Of a stretch of 64,000 nt of DNA, positions 44,150 to 63,707 are shown piece after piece (position 1 is the first letter of the stretch; the number at the start of each line of letters is the position of its first letter). Made by a program: the position numbers and the translations under genes. The stretch comes from Anaeromyxobacter sp. GTDB taxonomy: Bacteria > Myxococcota > Myxococcia > Myxococcales > Anaeromyxobacteraceae. Under the pieces are notes generated by a model, which saw nothing but the letters and a program-made list of their open reading frames with translations, was not told where the DNA came from and did not search any database. Location: NCBI GenBank assembly GCA_025360965.1, contig JANYBC010000021.1:22199-86198 (forward strand), written 5' to 3'.

Positions 44150-44410
44150 TCAGCCGGCGAGATCCCTCGAGGCGGGGCGCAGCCCCCAGCGCAGCACCTC
44201 CGGGTCGAGGTCGGTGCCGTTCGACCAGACGATCGTCCCAAGCTCCGGATCCACCTTCACCGACCTGAAGAAGGCGGCGTTTGCACGATGCAGCTCGAAG
44301 ACGGGACCATGCAGGAATGGGTCGAGGTCAACGGTCCTGGTCGCCCCGTCGGTGAAGCCGAGCTCCACGACAAAGCCTTCGAGGCACCTCACCGAGGCGA
44401 CGCAGACCAT
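44150..44410 (-). CDS. DUF2442 protein
   Basis: 86 residues matching the DUF2442 pattern: VRCLEGFVVELGFTDGATRTVDLDPFL, then FRSVKVDPELGTIVWSNGTDLDPEVLRW. It lies 9 bases downstream of the DUF4160 gene. DUF2442 and DUF4160 genes are often adjacent, which has led to suggestions of a toxin-antitoxin-like relation; this is not established. In such a model DUF2442 would be the partner or antitoxin. No DNA-binding motif is evident beyond the small beta fold. Confidence 0.85.
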   Translation of the reverse strand: MVCVASVRCLEGFVVELGFTDGATRTVDLDPFLHGPVFELHRANAAFFRSVKVDPELGTIVWSNGTDLDPEVLRWGLRPASRDLAG

Positions 44411-44419
44411 GGCGGAAGC

Positions 44420-44680
44420 CTAGTCGAGCGGAGGGATCGATTCCAGAGGCTGCAGGTGACGAGCCCGGTCCCAGTCGGCAACCAGTTCCGGCCGGTGCAG
44501 CAAGGCCCATTCCGCGACCAGGGCCAGGGCTCGTCTCGGCAGCGAGCCGCGCAGGATCTCGAGCGTGTCGATGCGGATGGCAGCCCGGCACCCGGCGTAG
44601 GTGGCGTGGAAATGCGGCGGGAGGAGGTCCTCGTAGTACATGGAGATCACGATCCCGAAGAACGTGCTGATGCGCGGCAT
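44420..44680 (-). CDS. DUF4160 protein
   Basis: 86 residues from ATG 44680 (MPRISTFFGIVISMYYEDLL); an upstream in-frame start at 44719 adds 13 non-conserved residues. The family signature is present: YEDLLPPHFHATYAG, AAIRIDTLEILRGSLPRRAL, VAEWALLHRPELVADWDRA, with the conserved H-x-H. Cotranscribed with DUF2442. Function unknown. Flanked by the 28-base direct repeats. Confidence 0.85.
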   Translation of the reverse strand: MPRISTFFGIVISMYYEDLLPPHFHATYAGCRAAIRIDTLEILRGSLPRRALALVAEWALLHRPELVADWDRARHLQPLESIPPLD

Positions 44681-44998
44681 CCAGCGGAGCAGGGCAAGAT
44701 CGGGGCCGCGCCAAGTCATCGGAAATCCTGGGTGCCCCCGGCCTGACCACGGCCGAACCGCGGACCATGGTCCGCCGGGCGGAACTCTCGGTCAGGCCGA
44801 GGCCCCCGTCAGGTCGCGGCCCCGGCGCGATGGCGCCAGCCAAAGTCGGGCAGTCCGGGTTGGGAAGCCGGGGCAGCCTTGCTATCTTCCCGCTGCGCTC
44901 CGCCAGGGCCCGAAGCGGGCTCCCAGCGCTGGTGAACCAGCCCGCTCGAGGTCGACGGAGTGCGCCGGGACCCCATCCCGGCCGGAAAGAGACCACCG
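44681..44998 (+). promoter_or_regulatory. Promoter and structured leader of the DAHP synthase gene
   Basis: 318 bases without a gene. It holds the right 28-base repeat (44802-44829) and a promoter TTGGGA (44860-44865), 17 bases, TATCTT (44883-44888). The ~105-base leader contains an 8-base stem (44914-44921 with 44939-44946) that competes with a smaller inner stem (44928-44932 with 44937-44941), and GGAAAGAGA before the ATG. Alternative pairings could allow attenuation, but I see no leader peptide rich in aromatic codons. Confidence 0.5.
44802..44829 (+). repeat. Right copy of a 28-base direct repeat
   Basis: Partner of 44088-44115 (26 of 28 identical, same orientation). The start-to-start distance is 714 bases, enclosing the DUF2442-DUF4160 pair. 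Confidence 0.6.
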
Positions 44999-51568: not shown

Positions 51569-53713
51569 TTGGGGGGAAGGGCGCTGTCCGGCACCAACGA
51601 CACCGAGCGCGACGCCGACGGCCTGCTGGTCACGTCGCCGGAGACGCTCGCCCTCCGCGCCAGCGAGGAGCGCTTCCGCCAGCTGGCCGAGAACGCCCGC
51701 GAGGTCCTCTGGCTGCTCGAGGTGCCGGGGGGCCGGATCTCCTACGTCAACCCGGCCTACGAAGCGATCTGGGGGCGATCCCGCCAGGCGCTCTACGAGG
51801 AACCCGAGGACTGGCACCGGTCGATCCACCCCGGCGACCGGGAGCGGGTCATCGCCGCCTACCAGGCCGCCCAGGCCACGGCCTACGACGAGGAGTACCG
51901 GATCATCCACGCCGACGGCTCGGTCCACTGGATCCGGGACCGATCCGTCCCGGTGCGCGACGCCGGCGGCACGGTCATCAGGGTGGCCGGAATCGCCGAG
52001 GAGATCACCGCCCGCAAGCACTCCGAGGAGGCGCTGCGAGCGATCAACCGTGCCCTGCTCACCCTGGGGAGGTGCAACGAGGCGCTGGTGCGGGCCCCGA
52101 GCGAGCAGGCGCTCTACGAGGAGGTCTGCCGCCTCATCGTGGAGGACGGCGGGTACCTCATGTGCTGGGTCGGCCTGGTGGAGCACGATGAGCGCCGGAC
52201 CATCCGTCCGGTGGCGCACGCCGGCCTGGGCGAGGGGTACGTCGAGGCCCTCGACCTGGTCTGGTCGGACACCGAGCGCGGCCGCGGCCCGACCGGCACG
52301 GCGGCGCGCACCGGGCGGCCGGTGGTCGGCCGGGACTTCCTCACTGATCCCCTCCTGGCCCCCTGGCGCGAACAGGCGCTGAAGCGGGGGTTCCGGTCCC
52401 TGGCCGCGCTGCCCATGGTCGTCGACGGAGCTTGCCTCGGCGTGCTCACCATGCACGCCGGTGAGCCGGGCGGCTTCGGCGAGGAGGAGATCCGCTTCCT
52501 CGAGCGCCTGGCAGGGAACCTCGCCTTCGGCGTGGCGGCCCACCGCGCCCGCGAAGGGCGGGACCGGCTCACCGTGCAGCTGGCCCACGCCGATCGGCTG
52601 GTCGCCATGGGCACGCTGGCCGCCGGGGTCGCGCACGAGATCAACAACCCGCTCACCTACGTGGTGGCCGCCCTCGACCACCTCGGGGAGGTGCTCGGTG
52701 CCGCGCCAGCCGGGCTGTCGCCCGCGGCCACCCGGGACGCGCTGGCCGTGCTGGCCGAGGCGCGCGAGGGGAGCGAGCGGGTGCGCCTCATCGTCCGGGA
52801 CCTGAGCACCCTCTCTCGCGTGGAGGAGACCCGCGTCGAGCGGGTGGAGCTGCTGCCGATCATCGACTTCGCGGTGAGCATGTCCCGCAACGAGCTGAAG
52901 CACCGCGCCCGGCTCGTGAAGGACTACGGCCCGGTCCCGTCGGTGCTGGCCAACGGGGCCAAGCTCGGCCAGGTCTTCCTCAACCTGCTCATCAACGCTG
53001 CCCAGGCCATCCCGCCCGGCCGGGTGGAGCTCAACGAGGTCCGCGTCACCACCGCCACCGACCCGCAGGGCCGCGCCCTGATCGAGGTCAGGGACTCCGG
53101 GACGGGCGTGGCGCCCGAGGTGGCCCGACGCCTCTTCGAGCCGTTCGTCACCACCAAGCGCGCGGGCGAGGGGACCGGGCTCGGGCTCTCGATCTGCAGG
53201 GCGGTGATCGCCTCGCTGGGAGGCGAGATCTCGTTCGAGGATGCCCCGGAGCGAGGCTCGATCTTCCGGGTCACGCTGCCGGCCGCCGGCCGGCCCGAGC
53301 CGGAGCGGCCGGCCCGGCACGCCGTCGTGGCCACCGGCGCGAGCGGGCGTCGCGGCCTGGTGGCGGTGGTCGACGACGAGCCGGGCGTGCGCCGGGCCAT
53401 CACCAGGATCCTCGGCGCCGAGCACGACGTCGAGGAGTTCGACAACGCCAGGGAGCTGGCCGAACGGATCGCCGACGGCGCGCGCTACGACACCATCCTC
53501 TGCGACCTGATGATGCCCGACATGACCGGCATGGAGCTGCACGGTGTCCTGGCGCGCGCCATGCCGGAGCAGGGCGACGCCATGATCTTCATGACCGGCG
53601 GCATCTTCACCGAGGGGGCCCAGGCCTTCCTCGACGCCGTCCCCAACCCGCGCCTGGAGAAGCCGTTCGAGGCCGGGCCGCTGCGGACGCTGATCCGAAA
53701 CCGGATCGGCTAG
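51569..53713 (+). CDS. Hybrid sensor kinase: PAS-GAF-HisKA-HATPase-receiver
   Basis: 714 residues, soluble. PAS at ~30-150 (EERFRQLAENAREVLWLLEV, WHRSIHPGDRERVIAAYQ), GAF at ~165-325 (HAGLGEGYVEALDLVWSDTERG, RSLAALPMVVDG), H-box GVAHEINNPLTYVVAALDHL, N box NLLINAAQAI, GTGLGLSICRAV, and a C-terminal receiver with Asp in ILCDLMMPDMTG. No ATG/GTG is available at the head; a TTG at 51569 is supported by TAAATT ending 6 bases before it, and the frame has a stop at 51557. The GAF with bacteriophytochrome-like features might bind a small ligand. Its stop overlaps the convergent SDR gene stop (CTAG). Confidence 0.9.
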   Translation: MGGRALSGTNDTERDADGLLVTSPETLALRASEERFRQLAENAREVLWLLEVPGGRISYVNPAYEAIWGRSRQALYEEPEDWHRSIHPGDRERVIAAYQAAQATAYDEEYRIIHADGSVHWIRDRSVPVRDAGGTVIRVAGIAEEITARKHSEEALRAINRALLTLGRCNEALVRAPSEQALYEEVCRLIVEDGGYLMCWVGLVEHDERRTIRPVAHAGLGEGYVEALDLVWSDTERGRGPTGTAARTGRPVVGRDFLTDPLLAPWREQALKRGFRSLAALPMVVDGACLGVLTMHAGEPGGFGEEEIRFLERLAGNLAFGVAAHRAREGRDRLTVQLAHADRLVAMGTLAAGVAHEINNPLTYVVAALDHLGEVLGAAPAGLSPAATRDALAVLAEAREGSERVRLIVRDLSTLSRVEETRVERVELLPIIDFAVSMSRNELKHRARLVKDYGPVPSVLANGAKLGQVFLNLLINAAQAIPPGRVELNEVRVTTATDPQGRALIEVRDSGTGVAPEVARRLFEPFVTTKRAGEGTGLGLSICRAVIASLGGEISFEDAPERGSIFRVTLPAAGRPEPERPARHAVVATGASGRRGLVAVVDDEPGVRRAITRILGAEHDVEEFDNARELAERIADGARYDTILCDLMMPDMTGMELHGVLARAMPEQGDAMIFMTGGIFTEGAQAFLDAVPNPRLEKPFEAGPLRTLIRNRIG

Positions 53714-55842: not shown

Positions 55843-56226
55843 TCAGTGGCGGAGCGGCGGATCCCCGGCGGCGGCCTTCACCCGCGACAGGATGCCGTCC
55901 ATCTTCACGTCGGCCTTGGGGATGTAGCCCTGCACGCCGAGAAGCTCCGCCTCCCACTCGTACCCGTAGGCCGAGAGGATCAGCACCGGGATGGCGGCCC
56001 AGCGCGGCTCGGCCCGCATCCGCTCGATCACGCCCCAGCCGTCGATGCCCGGCATCTTCAGGTCGAGCAGCACCATCCCCGGCACCTCGCCGTCCAGCCG
56101 GACCAAGGCCTCCTCGCCGCTGGCGGCCTGCTCCACCGGGTAGCCGGCCTGCGCCAGCACCTCGCAGAGCGCGGCGCGGAAGTCGTCGTCGTCGTCGACC
56201 ACCAGGATGTACTGGCCGGGGGTCAC
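55843..56226 (-). CDS. Stand-alone response-regulator receiver protein
   Basis: 127 residues, only a receiver domain: acidic cluster YILVVDDDDDFRAAL, phosphoacceptor Asp in MVLLDLKMPGIDGWGV, Ser/Thr in VLILSAYG, and Lys in GYIPKADV. GTG start overlaps the stop of the DHH phosphoesterase (GTGA), so they are translationally coupled. It may be phosphorylated by the hybrid kinase nearby or act as an adaptor on the phosphoesterase; both are inference. Confidence 0.9.
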   Translation of the reverse strand: MTPGQYILVVDDDDDFRAALCEVLAQAGYPVEQAASGEEALVRLDGEVPGMVLLDLKMPGIDGWGVIERMRAEPRWAAIPVLILSAYGYEWEAELLGVQGYIPKADVKMDGILSRVKAAAGDPPLRH

Positions 56227-57191
56227 GGGGTCGCCTCGGCGCGGAGCGCGGCGGCGATCTCGGCGCCGATGCGCCTGGCCTCGTCGGCCTGCCCCGGCGG
56301 CAGCGTCACCGCGCCCACCACCGGGTGTCCGCCGCCGCCGTAGCGCTGGCAGAGCCGGGCGATGTCGTGGCTGCGCGGCACCAGCGGCCACGGGTTGGAG
56401 CCGACCGAGACCTTGGTCCGCTTCCGGTCCTCCGACACCACCACCGTGTAGCGGGCCGCCGGGAAGAGCTCGTAGGCGATGAACTTGTTGGCGCTCTCCA
56501 GCCCGGTGCCGAGCAGGTCGACCTCGACCACGCCCTGCTCCAGGCGCGCCAGGCCGCGGTAGAGCCCGATGGCCGCCTGGTGGCGGGCCAGCAGCGGCGC
56601 CAGCGGCTCGGCGGCCCAGGGAGCGTCCACGATCTGCGCCAGCGTCCGGTGGCGCATGGCCTCGATGATCCGGTCGGGCAGCGCCGGGTCCTGGGTGGCC
56701 TCCAGCAGCGTCATGAGCTTGAGGGCCGGCTCCTCGAGCCGGACCGCCACCGCGGCCGAGGGGAAGCGGGCCGCGTCGATCAGCTCGGCCCAGTGGATGA
56801 GCTCCTCGAGCCCGGCGGCCTCCCAGCCGAACCGGTCGCGCAGGGTGCGGGCGATGAAGCCGGTGCAGGAGGGGGCGGCCGGGTCCCAGAACTGCCGGGG
56901 CGATCGCCGGGCCTCGAAGACCGCCTGGTCGGCCGGCGACATGAAGGCGCTGGCGTGGTGGTCGAACCACCAGTGAAGGCCGGGGTGTGGCGAGAAGCGG
57001 AAATCGACGCAGGCGTTGAGCGGCCCGTCGAAGGCGTCGGCCGGGAAGGGATCGCCCTGGGCGTGAGCCATGGGGCGGTGGCGCACGCCGGAGAGCCGCG
57101 CCCCCTCCCGCTCGGCCATGAAGCGGCCGAAGAGGGCGGTGGAGGCGCAGCCGTCGAAGCAGTTGCCGTGGTACAGGATCGTCAGGTGCAT
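56223..57191 (-). CDS. DHH-family phosphoesterase (DHH-DHHA1)
   Basis: 322 residues from ATG 57191 (MHLTILYHGNCFDGCAST). Metal-binding elements: YHGNCFDG at the N-terminus (in place of the usual HxDxDG), DFRFSPHP, the name motif FDHH in HWWFDHHASAF, and the DHHA1 loop YGGGGHP near the C-terminus. The family hydrolyses short oligonucleotides, cyclic dinucleotides or polyphosphate; motif variation prevents a substrate call. Coupled to a receiver gene downstream. Similar proteins exist in Myxococcota as conserved hypotheticals. Confidence 0.82.
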   Translation of the reverse strand: MHLTILYHGNCFDGCASTALFGRFMAEREGARLSGVRHRPMAHAQGDPFPADAFDGPLNACVDFRFSPHPGLHWWFDHHASAFMSPADQAVFEARRSPRQFWDPAAPSCTGFIARTLRDRFGWEAAGLEELIHWAELIDAARFPSAAVAVRLEEPALKLMTLLEATQDPALPDRIIEAMRHRTLAQIVDAPWAAEPLAPLLARHQAAIGLYRGLARLEQGVVEVDLLGTGLESANKFIAYELFPAARYTVVVSEDRKRTKVSVGSNPWPLVPRSHDIARLCQRYGGGGHPVVGAVTLPPGQADEARRIGAEIAAALRAEATP

Positions 57192-57347
57192 CCGGCCGCG
57201 GAGCATAGCGGCAAGCGACGCCGCGCACCGGGCCGAACCGGGTCCGCCCCACCGGGGCCGGTCTCCGCCGCGCTCCGGGACGAGCGCGCCGGCCGCTCGC
57301 GGCCGGGCGGTAGCGGCGGGCCTGCCCCGCGAGTAGACTCACGGCGA

Positions 57348-58309
<962 letters not shown>

Positions 58310-58313
<4 letters not shown>

Positions 58314-59215
58314 CCGTCGCCGCCCCGCCGCCGTCGGCCCCGGCTGGCCCGGCCGGCCCGCAGCTGGTGATCATCACCGGGGTATCCGGGTCGGGGAAGT
58401 CCACGGCGCTGCGGGCCCTCGAGGACTCCGGCTTCTACTGCGTCGACAACCTCCCCATCGTGCTGCTGGAGAAGCTGCTGCAGCTCTCCGGCCACACCGC
58501 CGGCGAGGTCTCGCGCATCGCCGCGGTGGTCGACGCCCGCGACGTCCGCTTCCTGCCCGAGGCGCCGCGCATCCTCGGCGAGCTGCGGAAGCTCGGCATC
58601 CCCCTCACCGTCCTCTTCCTCGACGCCACCGACGAGTCGCTGGTGCGCCGCTACTCCGAGACCCGGCGCCGCCACCCGCTCTCGGGCGACACGGGGACGG
58701 TCCTCGACGGCGTGGCCGCCGAGCGCCAGGCCCTGGCCGGGCTCCACGCCGTGGCCGACGAGGTCGTCGACACCACCAACCTCAACGTCCACGACCTCAA
58801 GCGGCTGGTGGGCAAGCGCTTCGTCTCCGGCGAGGGGGCCAAGCTCGGCGTCACGGTGGTCTCCTTCGGCTTTCGCTACGGCATCCCGGCCCACTCCGAC
58901 CTGGTGCTCGACGTCCGCTTCCTGCCCAACCCGTACTTCATCCCCGAGCTGCGTTCGCGGGTCGGGACCGAGCCGGCGGTGCGCGACTTCGTGCTGTCCC
59001 AGCCCGACGCCCAGGCCTTCCTCGACCGGCTCTACGACTTCGGGGGCTTCCTGCTGCCGCGCTACAAGGCCGAGGGGAAGAGCTACCTGACCATCGCCAT
59101 CGGCTGCACCGGCGGCAAGCACCGCTCGGTGGCCATCGCCGGCGAGCTGGCCCGGCGGCTCGAAGCTGCCGGCCAGGCGGTCCGCCTCTGGCATCGAGAC
59201 ATCGAGAAGGAGTAG
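58310..59215 (+). CDS. rapZ: RNase adapter protein RapZ / nucleotide-binding YvcJ family
   Basis: 301 residues. Walker [27 protein letters not shown] at the N-terminus, [31 protein letters not shown], and the C-terminal domain with [18 protein letters not shown]. In E. coli RapZ steers RNase E to the GlmZ sRNA; in Bacillus YvcJ binds metabolites/nucleotides. GTG start overlaps the hprK stop. Its PTS context matches the conserved rapZ-ptsO/PTS linkage of proteobacteria. Confidence 0.95.
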
Positions 59216-59229
59216 GTTCCCGCCCCGCC

Positions 59230-59643
59230 ATGGTCGGACTCGTCATCGCAACGCACGGGCAGCTGGCAGCGGAGCTGCTCCGCACCGCCGAGGGCATCGT
59301 CGGCCAGGTGCCGAACGTCACCGCCGTCTCGGTCGACTCCGCCACCTCGGTCGAGGAGGCGCGGGCCCGCCTGGCCACGGCCATCCACCGGGTGGGGACC
59401 GACGGCGAGGGGGTGCTGGTGCTCACCGACATGTTCGGCGGCACGCCCGCCAACCTGGCGCTCACCTTCCTCGATGAGCAGATCGAGGTGGTGACCGGCG
59501 TCAACCTGCCCATGCTGATGAAGCTCGCCAACACCCGCGGCAACGGGCTGGCGGCCGCCGCCGAGCTGGCCACGGCGCAGGGGCAGAAGAACATCACCCT
59601 GGCCAGCGCGCTGCTGCGAGCCCGCGCCCAGTCGGGCCGCTGA
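59230..59643 (+). CDS. PTS system mannose-type EIIA component
   Basis: 137 residues of EIIA-Man type: GLVIATHGQLAAELLRTAEGI with phosphoacceptor His at residue 9-10, VLTDMFGGTPANLAL, and VVTGVNLPMLMKLAN. Receives phosphate from HPr-His15 and passes it to EIIB. It is unfused to EIIB, unlike E. coli ManX. Follows rapZ by 14 bases. Confidence 0.93.
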   Translation: MVGLVIATHGQLAAELLRTAEGIVGQVPNVTAVSVDSATSVEEARARLATAIHRVGTDGEGVLVLTDMFGGTPANLALTFLDEQIEVVTGVNLPMLMKLANTRGNGLAAAAELATAQGQKNITLASALLRARAQSGR

Positions 59644-59656
59644 GCGGGGGCGCCGG

Positions 59657-60151
59657 GTGATCCCCCTCGTCCGCGTCGACAACCGGCTGCTGCACGGGCA
59701 GGTGCTGGAGGCCTGGATGCCGAGGCTGGGGGCGACCACCGTGGTGGTGGCCGACGACGAGGCGGCCCTGAGCCCGCTGGCGCGCGCCGCCATGACCCTC
59801 TGCGTCCCCTGCGAGATCCCGGCCCGCATCGAGAAGCTGGCGGCCGTCGACTTCGCCGCGCTGGCCGACTCCACGGCGGTGGTGCTGCTGCTGGTGCGCG
59901 ACGTGGCCGGGCTGGTCGAGGCCACGACGCGGGGGCTCACCCCGGCGCGGGCGCCGCTCCTCAACCTCGGCAACGTCCACTTCGCCACGGGGCGCCGCCC
60001 CGTCACCCCCTCGGTCTACCTGACCGGGGAGGAGCTGGAGGCCCTGAAGCGGCTGGCCGCGGCCGGGTTCAGGATCGAGGCCCGCGCCGTGCCCACCGAG
60101 GCGCCGGTGGGGCTGGACGAGCTCGAGCGCCGGTACGCCGCCGCCCGATAG
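59657..60151 (+). CDS. PTS system mannose/sorbose-type EIIB component
   Basis: 164 residues: VRVDNRLLHGQVLEAWMPRLG with phosphoacceptor His near residue 14, and VVVADDEAALSPLARAAMTLCVP. The C-terminus has GRRPVTPSVYLTGEELEALKRL as in the family. Phosphorylates incoming sugar via EIICD. GTG start 13 bases after the EIIA stop. Confidence 0.92.
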   Translation: MIPLVRVDNRLLHGQVLEAWMPRLGATTVVVADDEAALSPLARAAMTLCVPCEIPARIEKLAAVDFAALADSTAVVLLLVRDVAGLVEATTRGLTPARAPLLNLGNVHFATGRRPVTPSVYLTGEELEALKRLAAAGFRIEARAVPTEAPVGLDELERRYAAAR

Positions 60152-60169
60152 GCTAGACTCCGCTCCATC

Positions 60170-60865
60170 GTGGGTTACCTCCTCCTCGGCATCGTGGCCG
60201 GGCTGGCTGCAGTGGAGCGCAAGGGCTTCCTGCAGGCCATGCTCTCCCGGCCCATCGCGCTGGCCCCCCTCACCGGGCTGGTGCTCGGCGACGTCGCCGG
60301 CGGGCTGGCGGTGGCGGCGCCGCTCGAGCTGCTCTGGCTCGGCGCCGTCAACCTGGGCGCGGCGCTGCCGGTCCACGAGGCGCTGGGCACGGTGGCGGTG
60401 GCCGGCGGCGCGGTGCTGGCGGGGCAGGCGCTCGGCACCGGCGTGACCCCGGCGCTGGCGGTGCTGGCGCTGCTGGCCGGGGCGCCGATGGCGCTGCTGG
60501 GCCGGCGCGCCGATCGCCTCGTGGAGCAGGGCAACGAGCGGCTGGCCCTCTTCGCCGAGGAGGCGCTGCGACGCCACCACCCGCACGTGGCGGTCCGGCT
60601 CAACCTGGCCGGGCTGGCCATGCCCTTCGCCATCGCCGCGGTGCTGGCACCGGCCGGCGCGCTGGTGGCCAGCACGCTGGCGGTCTGGGTGGTGCGGGCC
60701 GCGCCGCAGCTCGACGGCCCGCTGCGGGTCGGCTGGTGGGCCTTCTGCGGCCTGGCCTGCGCCGCCGGCGCCAGGGCGCTCCGGGCCAGGCGCGCCGGGG
60801 CCATCTTCTCGGTCTCGGCGGCGGCGGCGCTGCTGCTCGGGATGGTGCTGCGGGTGTCGCCATGA
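60170..60865 (+). CDS. PTS system mannose/sorbose-type EIIC component
   Basis: 231 residues, six to eight hydrophobic segments: LLLGIVAGLAAVERKGFLQAML, SRPIALAPLTGLVLGDVAGGLAVAAPLELLWLG, LGTVAVAGGAVLAGQALG and later TMs. It is somewhat shorter than typical EIIC-Man (~260). GTG start; TAGACT box 10 bases upstream may mark an internal promoter. Stop overlaps the EIID start (ATGA). Confidence 0.88.
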   Translation: MGYLLLGIVAGLAAVERKGFLQAMLSRPIALAPLTGLVLGDVAGGLAVAAPLELLWLGAVNLGAALPVHEALGTVAVAGGAVLAGQALGTGVTPALAVLALLAGAPMALLGRRADRLVEQGNERLALFAEEALRRHHPHVAVRLNLAGLAMPFAIAAVLAPAGALVASTLAVWVVRAAPQLDGPLRVGWWAFCGLACAAGARALRARRAGAIFSVSAAAALLLGMVLRVSP

Positions 60866-61629
60866 CCATCCGCCTCCGCACCCGGGCCCACGTCTTCTGG
60901 CGCTGCCTCTTCCTGCAGGCGGCCTGGAACCGGCGCGGCATGCAGAACCTCGGCTTCGCCTATGCCATCGAGCCGGCGCTCGACGCACTCTACGAGGACC
61001 CGGTCCGGCGCGAGGAGGCGCTGGCCCGGCACCTGGGCTTCTTCAACTGCCACCCCTACATGGCGGCCGCCATCCTCGGCGGCGCCATCCACCACGAGGA
61101 GCGGGTGGCCGCCGGCGAGGAACCCGGGGCCGCGCCGCTATCCTACAAGGCGACGCTGCAGGGTCCGCTGGCCGCCGTCGGCGACGGCTTCTTCTGGACC
61201 GCGCTGCGCCCCTTCTTCGGCGCCATGGCGGCGCTGGGGGCGCTGGTGGCCGGCTGGCCCGCCGTGGTCGCGGCGGTGCTGCTCTACAACCTGGTCCACT
61301 TCACGCTGCGCGCCGTGCTCTTCGGCGCCGGCTACCGGCAGGGCGACGCGGTGGTCGGGGTCATCGCCAACCTGGCGCTGCCTCGCGTGGCCGAGCACCT
61401 GCGGTCGGCCGGGGTGGCGCTCTGCGGCGCCGCCGCCGCGGCGGTGGCGCTGCGGGCCAGCGGCGTGGCGCCGGGCACCGAGAACGCGGCGGTGCTGGTG
61501 GTGGCGGCGGCCGCGGGCGCCGGCTACCTGGCGCTGGCCAAGGGCACCCCGCTCTTCCCGGCCGCCTACCTGGTGGCGCTGTCCGGTACCATCATGGCGG
61601 CCGTGACCGGCTGGGACGGGAGACCCTGA
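60862..61629 (+). CDS. PTS system mannose/sorbose-type EIID component
   Basis: 255 residues. Family elements: FLQAAWNRRGMQNLGFAYAIEPAL, HLGFFNCHPYMAAAILGGAIHHEE, KATLQGPLAAVGDGFFWTALRP, and several C-terminal TMs. Shorter than E. coli ManZ (~286) in its membrane part. Together with EIIC forms the membrane channel/receptor. The sugar cannot be told. Confidence 0.9.
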   Translation: MTIRLRTRAHVFWRCLFLQAAWNRRGMQNLGFAYAIEPALDALYEDPVRREEALARHLGFFNCHPYMAAAILGGAIHHEERVAAGEEPGAAPLSYKATLQGPLAAVGDGFFWTALRPFFGAMAALGALVAGWPAVVAAVLLYNLVHFTLRAVLFGAGYRQGDAVVGVIANLALPRVAEHLRSAGVALCGAAAAAVALRASGVAPGTENAAVLVVAAAAGAGYLALAKGTPLFPAAYLVALSGTIMAAVTGWDGRP

Positions 61630-61631
61630 GC

Positions 61632-61904
61632 ATGGCGCGGCTGGAGCAGATCTTCACGATCGTCAACTCGCTGGGGCTCCACGCCCGGCCGGCCTCGCAG
61701 CTGGTGCAGATCGCCAACCGGCACAAGTGCGAGGTGCACCTCATCAAGGACGGCAACTCGGTCAACGCCAAGAGCATCATGGGGGTGCTCACCCTGGCGG
61801 CGGCGCGCGGCTCCAAGCTGACCGTCACCTGCGACGGCGACGACGCCGAGTCGGCCCTGGCGGCCATGGGTGCGCTCATCGCCGCCGGCTTCGGGGAGAA
61901 GTAG
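61632..61904 (+). CDS. ptsH: Phosphocarrier protein HPr
   Basis: 90 residues. GLHARPASQLVQIANRH carries the EI-dependent His15; NAKSIMGVLTLAA carries the Ser46-equivalent site for HprK, so this HPr can be regulated by both. ATG 2 bases after the EIID stop. Normal length. Confidence 0.96.
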   Translation: MARLEQIFTIVNSLGLHARPASQLVQIANRHKCEVHLIKDGNSVNAKSIMGVLTLAAARGSKLTVTCDGDDAESALAAMGALIAAGFGEK

Positions 61905-61916
61905 GAGACCACCACC

Positions 61917-63707
61917 ATGGCGGCCGGCACCACCACCTTGAACGGCATCGGCGCCTCGCCCGGCATCGCCATCGGGCGCTGCTGGCCGATCGATCGGCGC
62001 AAGGTGCGGACGCCCAAGCGCCGGCTCGGCCCCGACGAGATCGAGCCGGAGCTGGCCCGCTTCCGCGTGGCCCTCGAGATCTCCGAGCAGCAGCTCGACG
62101 AGGTGCGACGCAAGGTCACCGCCACCGAGGGGACCGGCGCCAGCGAGCACGTCGCCATCATCGACATCCACCGGCTCATGCTCAGGGACGAGATGCTGGT
62201 CCTCGAGGTGCAGAAGCTGATCCGCGAGGAGCGGCTCAACGCCGAGTGGTCGATCAAGCGGGCGGTGCGGAAGATCAAGGGGGCCTTCGCCGCCGACGCC
62301 GACGAGTACTTCAAGGAGCGGCGCGCCGACGTCGACTACGTCGGCGAGCGGATCATCAAGAACCTGCTCGGCCAGCAGGTCGACGTCGAGGAGCTGCCGC
62401 CGGAGGGGGCCATCATCGTGGCCAATGACCTGACCCCGGCCGACACCGCGCTGCTGCTCCACGAGCGCAAGGTCGGGGCCTTCGTCACCGACGCCGGGGC
62501 CAAGACCAGCCACACCGCCATCGTGGCCCGCGCCCTCGAGGTGCCGGCGGTGGTGGCGGTCGGCAAGATCACCACCCTGGCCGACCGGGGCGACTGGATC
62601 GTCGTCGACGGCACCAGCGGCGTGGTCATCATCAACCCGACGCCGGGGGAGCGGGCCGACTACGAGGCCGCCCGGCAGCGCTTCCTCGCCACCGAGAGCG
62701 ACCTGCTCCGCACCCGCGAGCTGCCGGCCACCACGCTCGACGGGGTCACCGTCACGCTGGCCGGCAACATCGAGTTCGCAGAGGAGGTCCCCAGCCTGCT
62801 CAGCCACGGCGGCGAGGCGGTCGGCCTCTACCGGACCGAGTTCCTCTACCTGCAGCGCGACCGGCTGCCGACCGAGGAGGAGCACTACCAGGACTACCGG
62901 CGGGTGCTGGAGGCGCTTTCGCCGCGCACCGTCACCATCCGCACCTTCGACCTCGGCGGCGACAAGCTGCCGTCCGGCCTCAAGGCCCACGCCGAGAACC
63001 CGGCCATGGGGCTCAGAGCCATCCGCTACTGCCTGCGCCAGCCCGACATGTTCCGCAGCCAGCTCCGGGCCCTGCTGCGGGCCTCGGTGCACGGCCGGCT
63101 CCGGCTCATGTTCCCCATGATCTCCGGGGTGGCCGAGTTGCGGGCCGCCAGGAAGGTGCTGGTCGAGGTGCGCGAGGAGCTGGCGGCGGAGGGGCACGAC
63201 CTGCCGCTGCCGCCGCTCGGCATCATGATCGAGCTCCCCAGCGCCGCGCTCATGGCCGACCGCCTGGCCCGCGAGGTCGACTTCTTCAGCATCGGCACCA
63301 ACGACCTGATCCAGTACACCATCGGCATCGACCGGCAGAACAAGGACGTCGCCTACCTCTACCGGCCGCTCCACCTCTCGGTGCTGCGGCTCCTGAAGCA
63401 GGTCTGCGACGCCGGCCGGGAGGCGGGCATCCCGGTCTCGATGTGCGGCGAGATGGCGGGCGAGCCGCTCAACGCCCTGGTGCTGCTCGGGCTCGGCGTC
63501 ACCGAGCTCTCCATGAACGGCCCCTCGATCCCGCTCGTGAAGCGTGTGGTGCGGGCGGCGCGGGCCGAGGACGGCCGGGCGCTGGTGGCGCGGATGCTGG
63601 CGCTGACCCAGGCCGACGACATCGAGCGCGAGGTTCGCGACGAGATGAACCGGCGCTTCGGCGCGCTCATGGAGCACGACGCCACGGTCGGCCCGGTCTC
63701 GGGGTAG
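61917..63707 (+). CDS. ptsI: PTS phosphoenolpyruvate-protein phosphotransferase (Enzyme I)
   Basis: 596 residues. Phosphohistidine domain with [22 protein letters not shown] (active His in TSHTAI), the HPr-binding helices before it, and the PEP-binding barrel: [60 protein letters not shown] and the catalytic-Cys region [13 protein letters not shown]. Transfers phosphate from PEP to HPr. Last gene of the PTS operon. Confidence 0.97.

Follow-up and report, generated by a model that had tools for sequence, protein, structure and literature searches.

A conserved operon of a PggH-like DHH-DHHA1 protein and a lone receiver in Anaeromyxobacteraceae

Introduction

Where Orn is absent, bacteria depend on other enzymes for the clearance of dinucleotides; the annotation of DHH proteins of this kind is acknowledged as incomplete (PMC12709177). 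The window described here—the whole stretch of DNA that was analysed, 64,000 nucleotides from Anaeromyxobacter sp.—holds a gene for such a protein that runs directly into a gene for a single receiver domain. The locus raises the question of whether the two proteins act together, as a phosphoesterase controlled by phosphorylation, or are only made together.

Architecture of the locus

The features concerned are as follows, all coordinates being positions in the 64,000-nt window:

56223–57191, minus strand: gene of the predicted DHH-DHHA1 phosphoesterase, 322 aa, with ATG at 57191
55843–56226, minus strand: gene of the single-domain receiver (PF00072 match), 127 aa, with GTG at 56226 and the stop ending at 55843
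56223–56226, minus strand: GTGA stop/start overlap of the DHH and receiver genes (ATGA or GTGA in 20/20 loci)
57192–57347, no strand: region separating the divergently oriented DHH and hprK genes, which presumably contains the promoter of the DHH-receiver operon
57348–58313, plus strand: hprK (HPr kinase/phosphorylase), which opens the divergent hprK-rapZ-PTS operon; a conserved neighbour in the family but outside the pair

The start of the DHH gene was set at 57191, the position from which the relatives align, the mechanical open reading frame beginning at 57206. The stop codon TGA (56225–56223) lies within the GTGA at the receiver start, so that the two genes overlap by exactly 4 bases, just as the sequence-only reading had it. 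Based on the conservation of this overlap, the two genes are counted here as a putative translationally coupled pair.

Concerning the surroundings, the divergent block of hprK, rapZ and PTS genes (EIIA, EIIB, EIIC, HPr, EI) occupies positions 57348–63707 of the plus strand and is conserved in the family. On the minus strand, a ParE-type toxin gene (PF05016; 46017–46594) overlaps by 4 bases a small gene upstream of it, which lies where a ParD antitoxin would be expected and gives no Pfam match, and a small two-gene cassette (44150–44719) consists of DUF4160 followed by DUF2442.

Conservation of the linkage

The family—Anaeromyxobacteraceae, as recognized from its named members, such as Anaeromyxobacter sp. 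PSR-1 (L067)—offered 22 loci with the enzyme. The receiver follows directly in 20 of them, each time with the 4-base ATGA or GTGA overlap, which is preserved identically down to about 60% identity. One of the remaining loci (G023) ends at a contig edge, so that 20 of the 21 relatives open to this check have kept the pairing. The other one, from a genome of 99% completeness (G008), has kept the enzyme and lost the receiver; GTGA is present at the enzyme stop and is followed by an unrelated open frame. In the enzyme tree, the family forms one clade, its stem measuring 0.40 changes per column, and G008 groups with its genus, so that by parsimony the loss of the receiver in G008 is read as secondary.

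It should be pointed out that adjacency alone is weak evidence, since the hprK-rapZ-PTS operon is also kept in the family block. The fixed overlap is stronger evidence. With the gene starts placed by alignment, the gaps within neighbouring same-strand gene pairs of these loci range from 14 to 44 bases (hprK-rapZ), −4 to 121 (EIIA-EIIB), 14 to 26 (EIIB-EIIC) and −4 to 14 (HPr-EI), and unlike these drifting distances, that between the enzyme and the receiver is −4 throughout; such an overlap can, however, also persist because breaking it is mechanically difficult. Outside the family, both genes are present elsewhere but are not linked, and the pairing is therefore a clade-specific, derived operon. 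No fusion of the enzyme with the receiver was found in the 80 named loci, and no conserved context of the enzyme beyond local synteny was seen outside the family.

The lack of a conserved linkage had been named beforehand as what would speak against the pairing; the linkage is there within the family, in the form of the identical overlaps, and it is missing beyond it. The stoichiometric partnership originally deduced from the overlap does not apply in general, since the enzyme is found with no receiver behind it in G008 and in every other family. Four enzyme residues are specific to the linked clade (P40, P107, D255 and R307); all of them are retained in G008 and, as they do not decay after the receiver loss, they were rejected as a signal of co-evolution. 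The PAS-GAF hybrid kinase encoded at 51569–53713 was also rejected as the cognate kinase, not being conserved at the locus in the relatives.

Fold and sequence motifs of the enzyme

The profile libraries barely detect the enzyme: the Pfam DHHA1 model scores 14.5 bits, i.e. below its cut-off of 25.9, and neither a Pfam DHH nor an NCBIfam match was obtained; the DHH assignment is settled by the fold comparison. The AlphaFold2 model, built from an alignment of 52 sequences, reached a pLDDT of 95 and a pTM of 0.89. The comparison with the PDB gave 72 matches at E ≤ 0.001, the best 50 of the 72 all belonging to the DHH superfamily except for 6mtz, listed with no name given. The closest match of the model, by a clear margin, is PggH from Vibrio cholerae (7d62; E 7.7e-17, TM 0.69/0.75); the next protein follows at E 3e-11, and the matches listed after PggH include NrnA-type enzymes (TM about 0.5), PAP phosphatase, GdpP, Rv2837c and RecJ. 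At the sequence level, a profile built from 20 relatives likewise finds PggH (E 2e-14), mainly through the DHHA1 half. Judged by the modelled fold and the motifs other than motif I, the protein is thus very probably a stand-alone DHH-DHHA1 phosphoesterase; the DHH phosphoesterase first read from the letters is confirmed at the level of the fold, with hydrolases of pGpG and nanoRNA as its nearest structures.

The motifs, given here by their invariant columns, are:

Enzyme residues: H8-x-x-C11-F12-D13-G14; D63; DHH 77–79; W134-A-x-x-I138-D139; GSNPW 264–268; GGGGH 285–289

In the alignment of 52 sequences, D77, H78, H79 and G286–H289 are invariant, as are H8, D13, D63 and D139. Motif I reads HGNCFDG in the window enzyme, and the pattern HxxCFDG is invariant in all 38 loci from the order and in all 80 named loci from Myxococcota and Acidobacteriota; the two-aspartate form (HxDxD/DxD) is not found, one aspartate being replaced by cysteine. 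In the NrnA from Bacillus, metal 1 is bound by D26, D80, H103 and D156, and metal 2 by D24 and H20 (PMC5593865). With the residues paired by motif order and spacing rather than by residue-level superposition, D13, D63, H78, D139 and H8 would be the counterparts of D26, D80, H103, D156 and H20, respectively, and the invariant C11 would stand at the position of the metal-2 ligand D24.

The departure of motif I had been taken as a hint of a distinct subfamily. Its invariance in the 80 named loci bears that idea out, and the motif does set a subfamily apart, but many DHH proteins of phages have HGNCxDG as well: when viral contigs were scanned for HGNCxDGF, at least 120 places were found, and 110 of the 120 listed have DHH at the right distance. 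The other motifs are intact in these proteins. The cysteine variant is therefore widespread and not new in itself. A phage origin of the enzyme was considered and rejected, as no phage record matches it. At L046 7137–8069 (minus strand; G031:C94), a genome that also has the standard copy encodes a second, divergent protein of the DHH family, of about 30% identity and with HSPCFDG as motif I.

Taxonomic distribution and likely substrate

Among the 117 relatives from its myxococcal order, 98 have the enzyme gene, nearly always as a single copy. In one acidobacterial class (that of L097), 117 of 121 genomes carry it, whereas carriers elsewhere in the phylum Myxococcota are few. It is thus a core gene in this class and in the order Myxococcales, yet standard profiles leave it unnamed, and its protein is probably an old housekeeping enzyme.

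Orn was not found in any of the 25 acidobacterial carriers searched, nor in any genome of the window's own family. Among the relatives, 14 of the 19 lacking the enzyme have Orn, these being all 14 enzyme-lacking genomes of one family (f4), compared with 50 of the 98 that bear the enzyme; this complementarity is not significant (Fisher p 0.08), is confounded by phylogeny and was taken as suggestive only. Five genomes (G001, G014, G040, G051 and G057) have neither protein, three of them being less than 82% complete and all of them consisting of at least 270 contigs.

The sampled genomes of the acidobacterial class mostly have only one other Pfam DHH match, usually of RecJ size, and nearly all sampled genomes of the order possess, besides RecJ, a second DHH protein resembling pyrophosphatase and NrnA. 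In the window's genome, the second stand-alone DHH protein (L166, G000:C59) carries the motif NPDPDS and lies in similarity between manganese pyrophosphatase and NrnA, no curated name reaching its cut-off.

The host genome contains nine GGDEF matches and a DAC cyclase domain, and it probably makes both c-di-GMP and c-di-AMP; pGpG and pApA are therefore expected products. An exclusion of c-di-AMP for lack of a cyclase was rejected, the cyclase being present. We favour, with somewhat better than even confidence, a hydrolase of linear dinucleotides or nanoRNA, i.e. a predicted short-nucleotide substrate. The distribution fits such a role and falls short of proving it, because the Orn comparison is not significant and clade-confounded and a second DHH protein is present.

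The receiver and its origin

The receiver matches PF00072 (Response_reg) with 70 bits (E 2.4e-19) and has the acidic pair D11/D12, the phospho-acceptor D55, S85 and K104, with no output domain. Its AlphaFold2 model, of moderate confidence (five sequences, pLDDT 77), shows the alternating beta-alpha topology, and the protein can be regarded as a complete, presumably phosphorylatable single-domain response regulator.

A conserved stretch, YEWEAEL at residues 89–95, falls in the model on alpha4, which belongs to the face that receivers commonly use for output. Its counterpart (FEWEAEL) is found order-wide among the receiver orthologs, which share the pattern S-[AG]-[YF]-G-[FY]-E-W-E-[AS]-E-L, and points to a specific protein partner, possibly one older than the linkage. 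Outside the family, the ortholog is present in most genomes of several other families, usually as one clear copy of ~44–57% identity and unlinked to the enzyme. In Myxococcaceae, it adjoins amidohydrolase and ABC transporter genes, and ABC genes flank the receiver also in another family (f3; L054, L055); the unlinked, ABC-flanked position would therefore be ancestral and the linkage derived. At L051 (6173–7938, minus strand) and the orthologous loci, the Myxococcaceae ortholog lies behind the amidohydrolase gene (PF04909), whose product is a possible older partner.

Possible roles of the pairing

The DHH gene and the receiver gene make up a genuine operon, well kept within a single family of bacteria, in which a widespread PggH-like enzyme with no name of its own is combined with a lone receiver of old origin. 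The best explanation, put forward tentatively and at somewhat less than even confidence, is that of an old enzyme with a newly attached switch. The enzyme would be a housekeeping two-metal DHH-DHHA1 phosphodiesterase of the PggH fold, cleaving dinucleotides and nanoRNAs, among them pGpG and pApA, into mononucleotides. In the ancestor of Anaeromyxobacteraceae, the receiver would have come to lie behind it, with the stop-start overlap tying its translation to that of the enzyme and keeping both in proportion. A kinase would phosphorylate D55, and the conserved alpha4 face would then dock on the enzyme and change its activity or its open-closed movement. That the receiver controls the enzyme is plausible, though hardly an even bet. 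If it does, the clearance of dinucleotides would be subject to regulation, and a two-component system could act on the cyclic-dinucleotide pools with no fused EAL, HD-GYP or GGDEF domain involved. The boldest version—the first DHH-superfamily phosphodiesterase under two-component control by a separate receiver, gating the breakdown of linear dinucleotides with feedback on c-di-GMP or c-di-AMP signalling, acting as the principal replacement of Orn in Myxococcales and Acidobacteriota and using a cysteine-containing metal site—is rather doubtful.

The main rival, about equally likely, is co-expression without contact, the enzyme acting as a housekeeping hydrolase of dinucleotides or nanoRNA and the receiver in a pathway of its own, that of its ancestral partner, with an overlap fixed once by chance in the founder of the family and now hard to break. 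The ancient receiver ortholog, unlinked in other families, agrees with it, and so does the alpha4 signature, which is older than the linkage and may serve another partner; the enzyme has also outlived the receiver in G008, where the residues of the linked clade are kept. The age of the alpha4 signature and the persistence of the enzyme with no receiver behind it, in G008 and outside the family, speak at the same time against the switch. Co-expression alone accounts less well for an overlap of exactly 4 bases in 20 of 20 loci while the nearby spacings drift, and the long stem of the linked clade would fit adaptation to a partner, although it may have other causes. The second DHH protein in nearly all sampled genomes of the order also weighs against the best explanation, as does the non-significant, clade-confounded Orn comparison, and so does the cysteine in place of the metal-2 aspartate, with which the activity of the enzyme is not to be taken for granted. 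That replacement could even be read as the loss of metal site 2 in a non-catalytic nucleotide sensor passing its signal via the receiver, C11 standing where NrnA has the metal-2 ligand D24; this appears very improbable, as H8, D13, D63, H78, H79, D139 and the GGGH histidine, invariant in the 52 sequences, preserve the pattern of an active site, and HGNCxDG occurs widely in DHH proteins of phages whose other motifs are intact. It is also unlikely, if less so, that the enzyme acts on another substrate of its superfamily—c-di-AMP, 3'-phosphoadenosine 5'-phosphate or polyphosphate—with control by the receiver conceivable either way: GdpP, PAP phosphatase and Rv2837c are among the structural matches and a c-di-AMP cyclase domain was found in 40 of the 41 relatives searched, but the pGpG-specific PggH is by far the nearest structure (E 7.7e-17 vs 3e-11).

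Comparison with known systems

Among the characterized proteins, PggH is the best fold and profile match of the window enzyme, both being stand-alone DHH-DHHA1 proteins of ~320 aa with GGGGH and the F-D-G of motif I in common; the identity is, however, 17%, and motif I reads TRSDFDG in PggH but HxxCFDG here. PggH is not known to have a receiver partner. NrnA has the two-domain fold in common and its H20, D26, D80, H103 and D156 have the putative counterparts given above, whereas its D24 corresponds to the cysteine, the TM is only about 0.5 and the Pfam DHH model fails to match the window enzyme.

For NrnB, three clades (A, B and C) are described (PMC12709177); the window enzyme, a stand-alone DHH-DHHA1 protein with GGGH, has a short C-terminus like NrnB-B/C. 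The main text of that article names neither Myxococcota or Acidobacteriota nor the cysteine motif.

Phage DHH phosphoesterases resemble the enzyme in that PHROG 4771 matches 51 of its 52 members and in the succession of HGNCxDG and DHH, found in 110 of the 120 viral matches listed (at least 120 in all); no direct protein match to the enzyme was obtained among the phage records, and no relative among the viral contigs at the threshold used. In the literature searched, nothing relevant was found on a receiver acting as the partner of a DHH enzyme, nor on such a phosphoesterase in Anaeromyxobacter. Response regulators with a phosphodiesterase output, such as those with the receiver fused to EAL or HD-GYP, share the idea of nucleotide hydrolysis controlled by phosphorylation; in the present pair, however, the receiver is a protein distinct from the enzyme, which belongs to the DHH superfamily.
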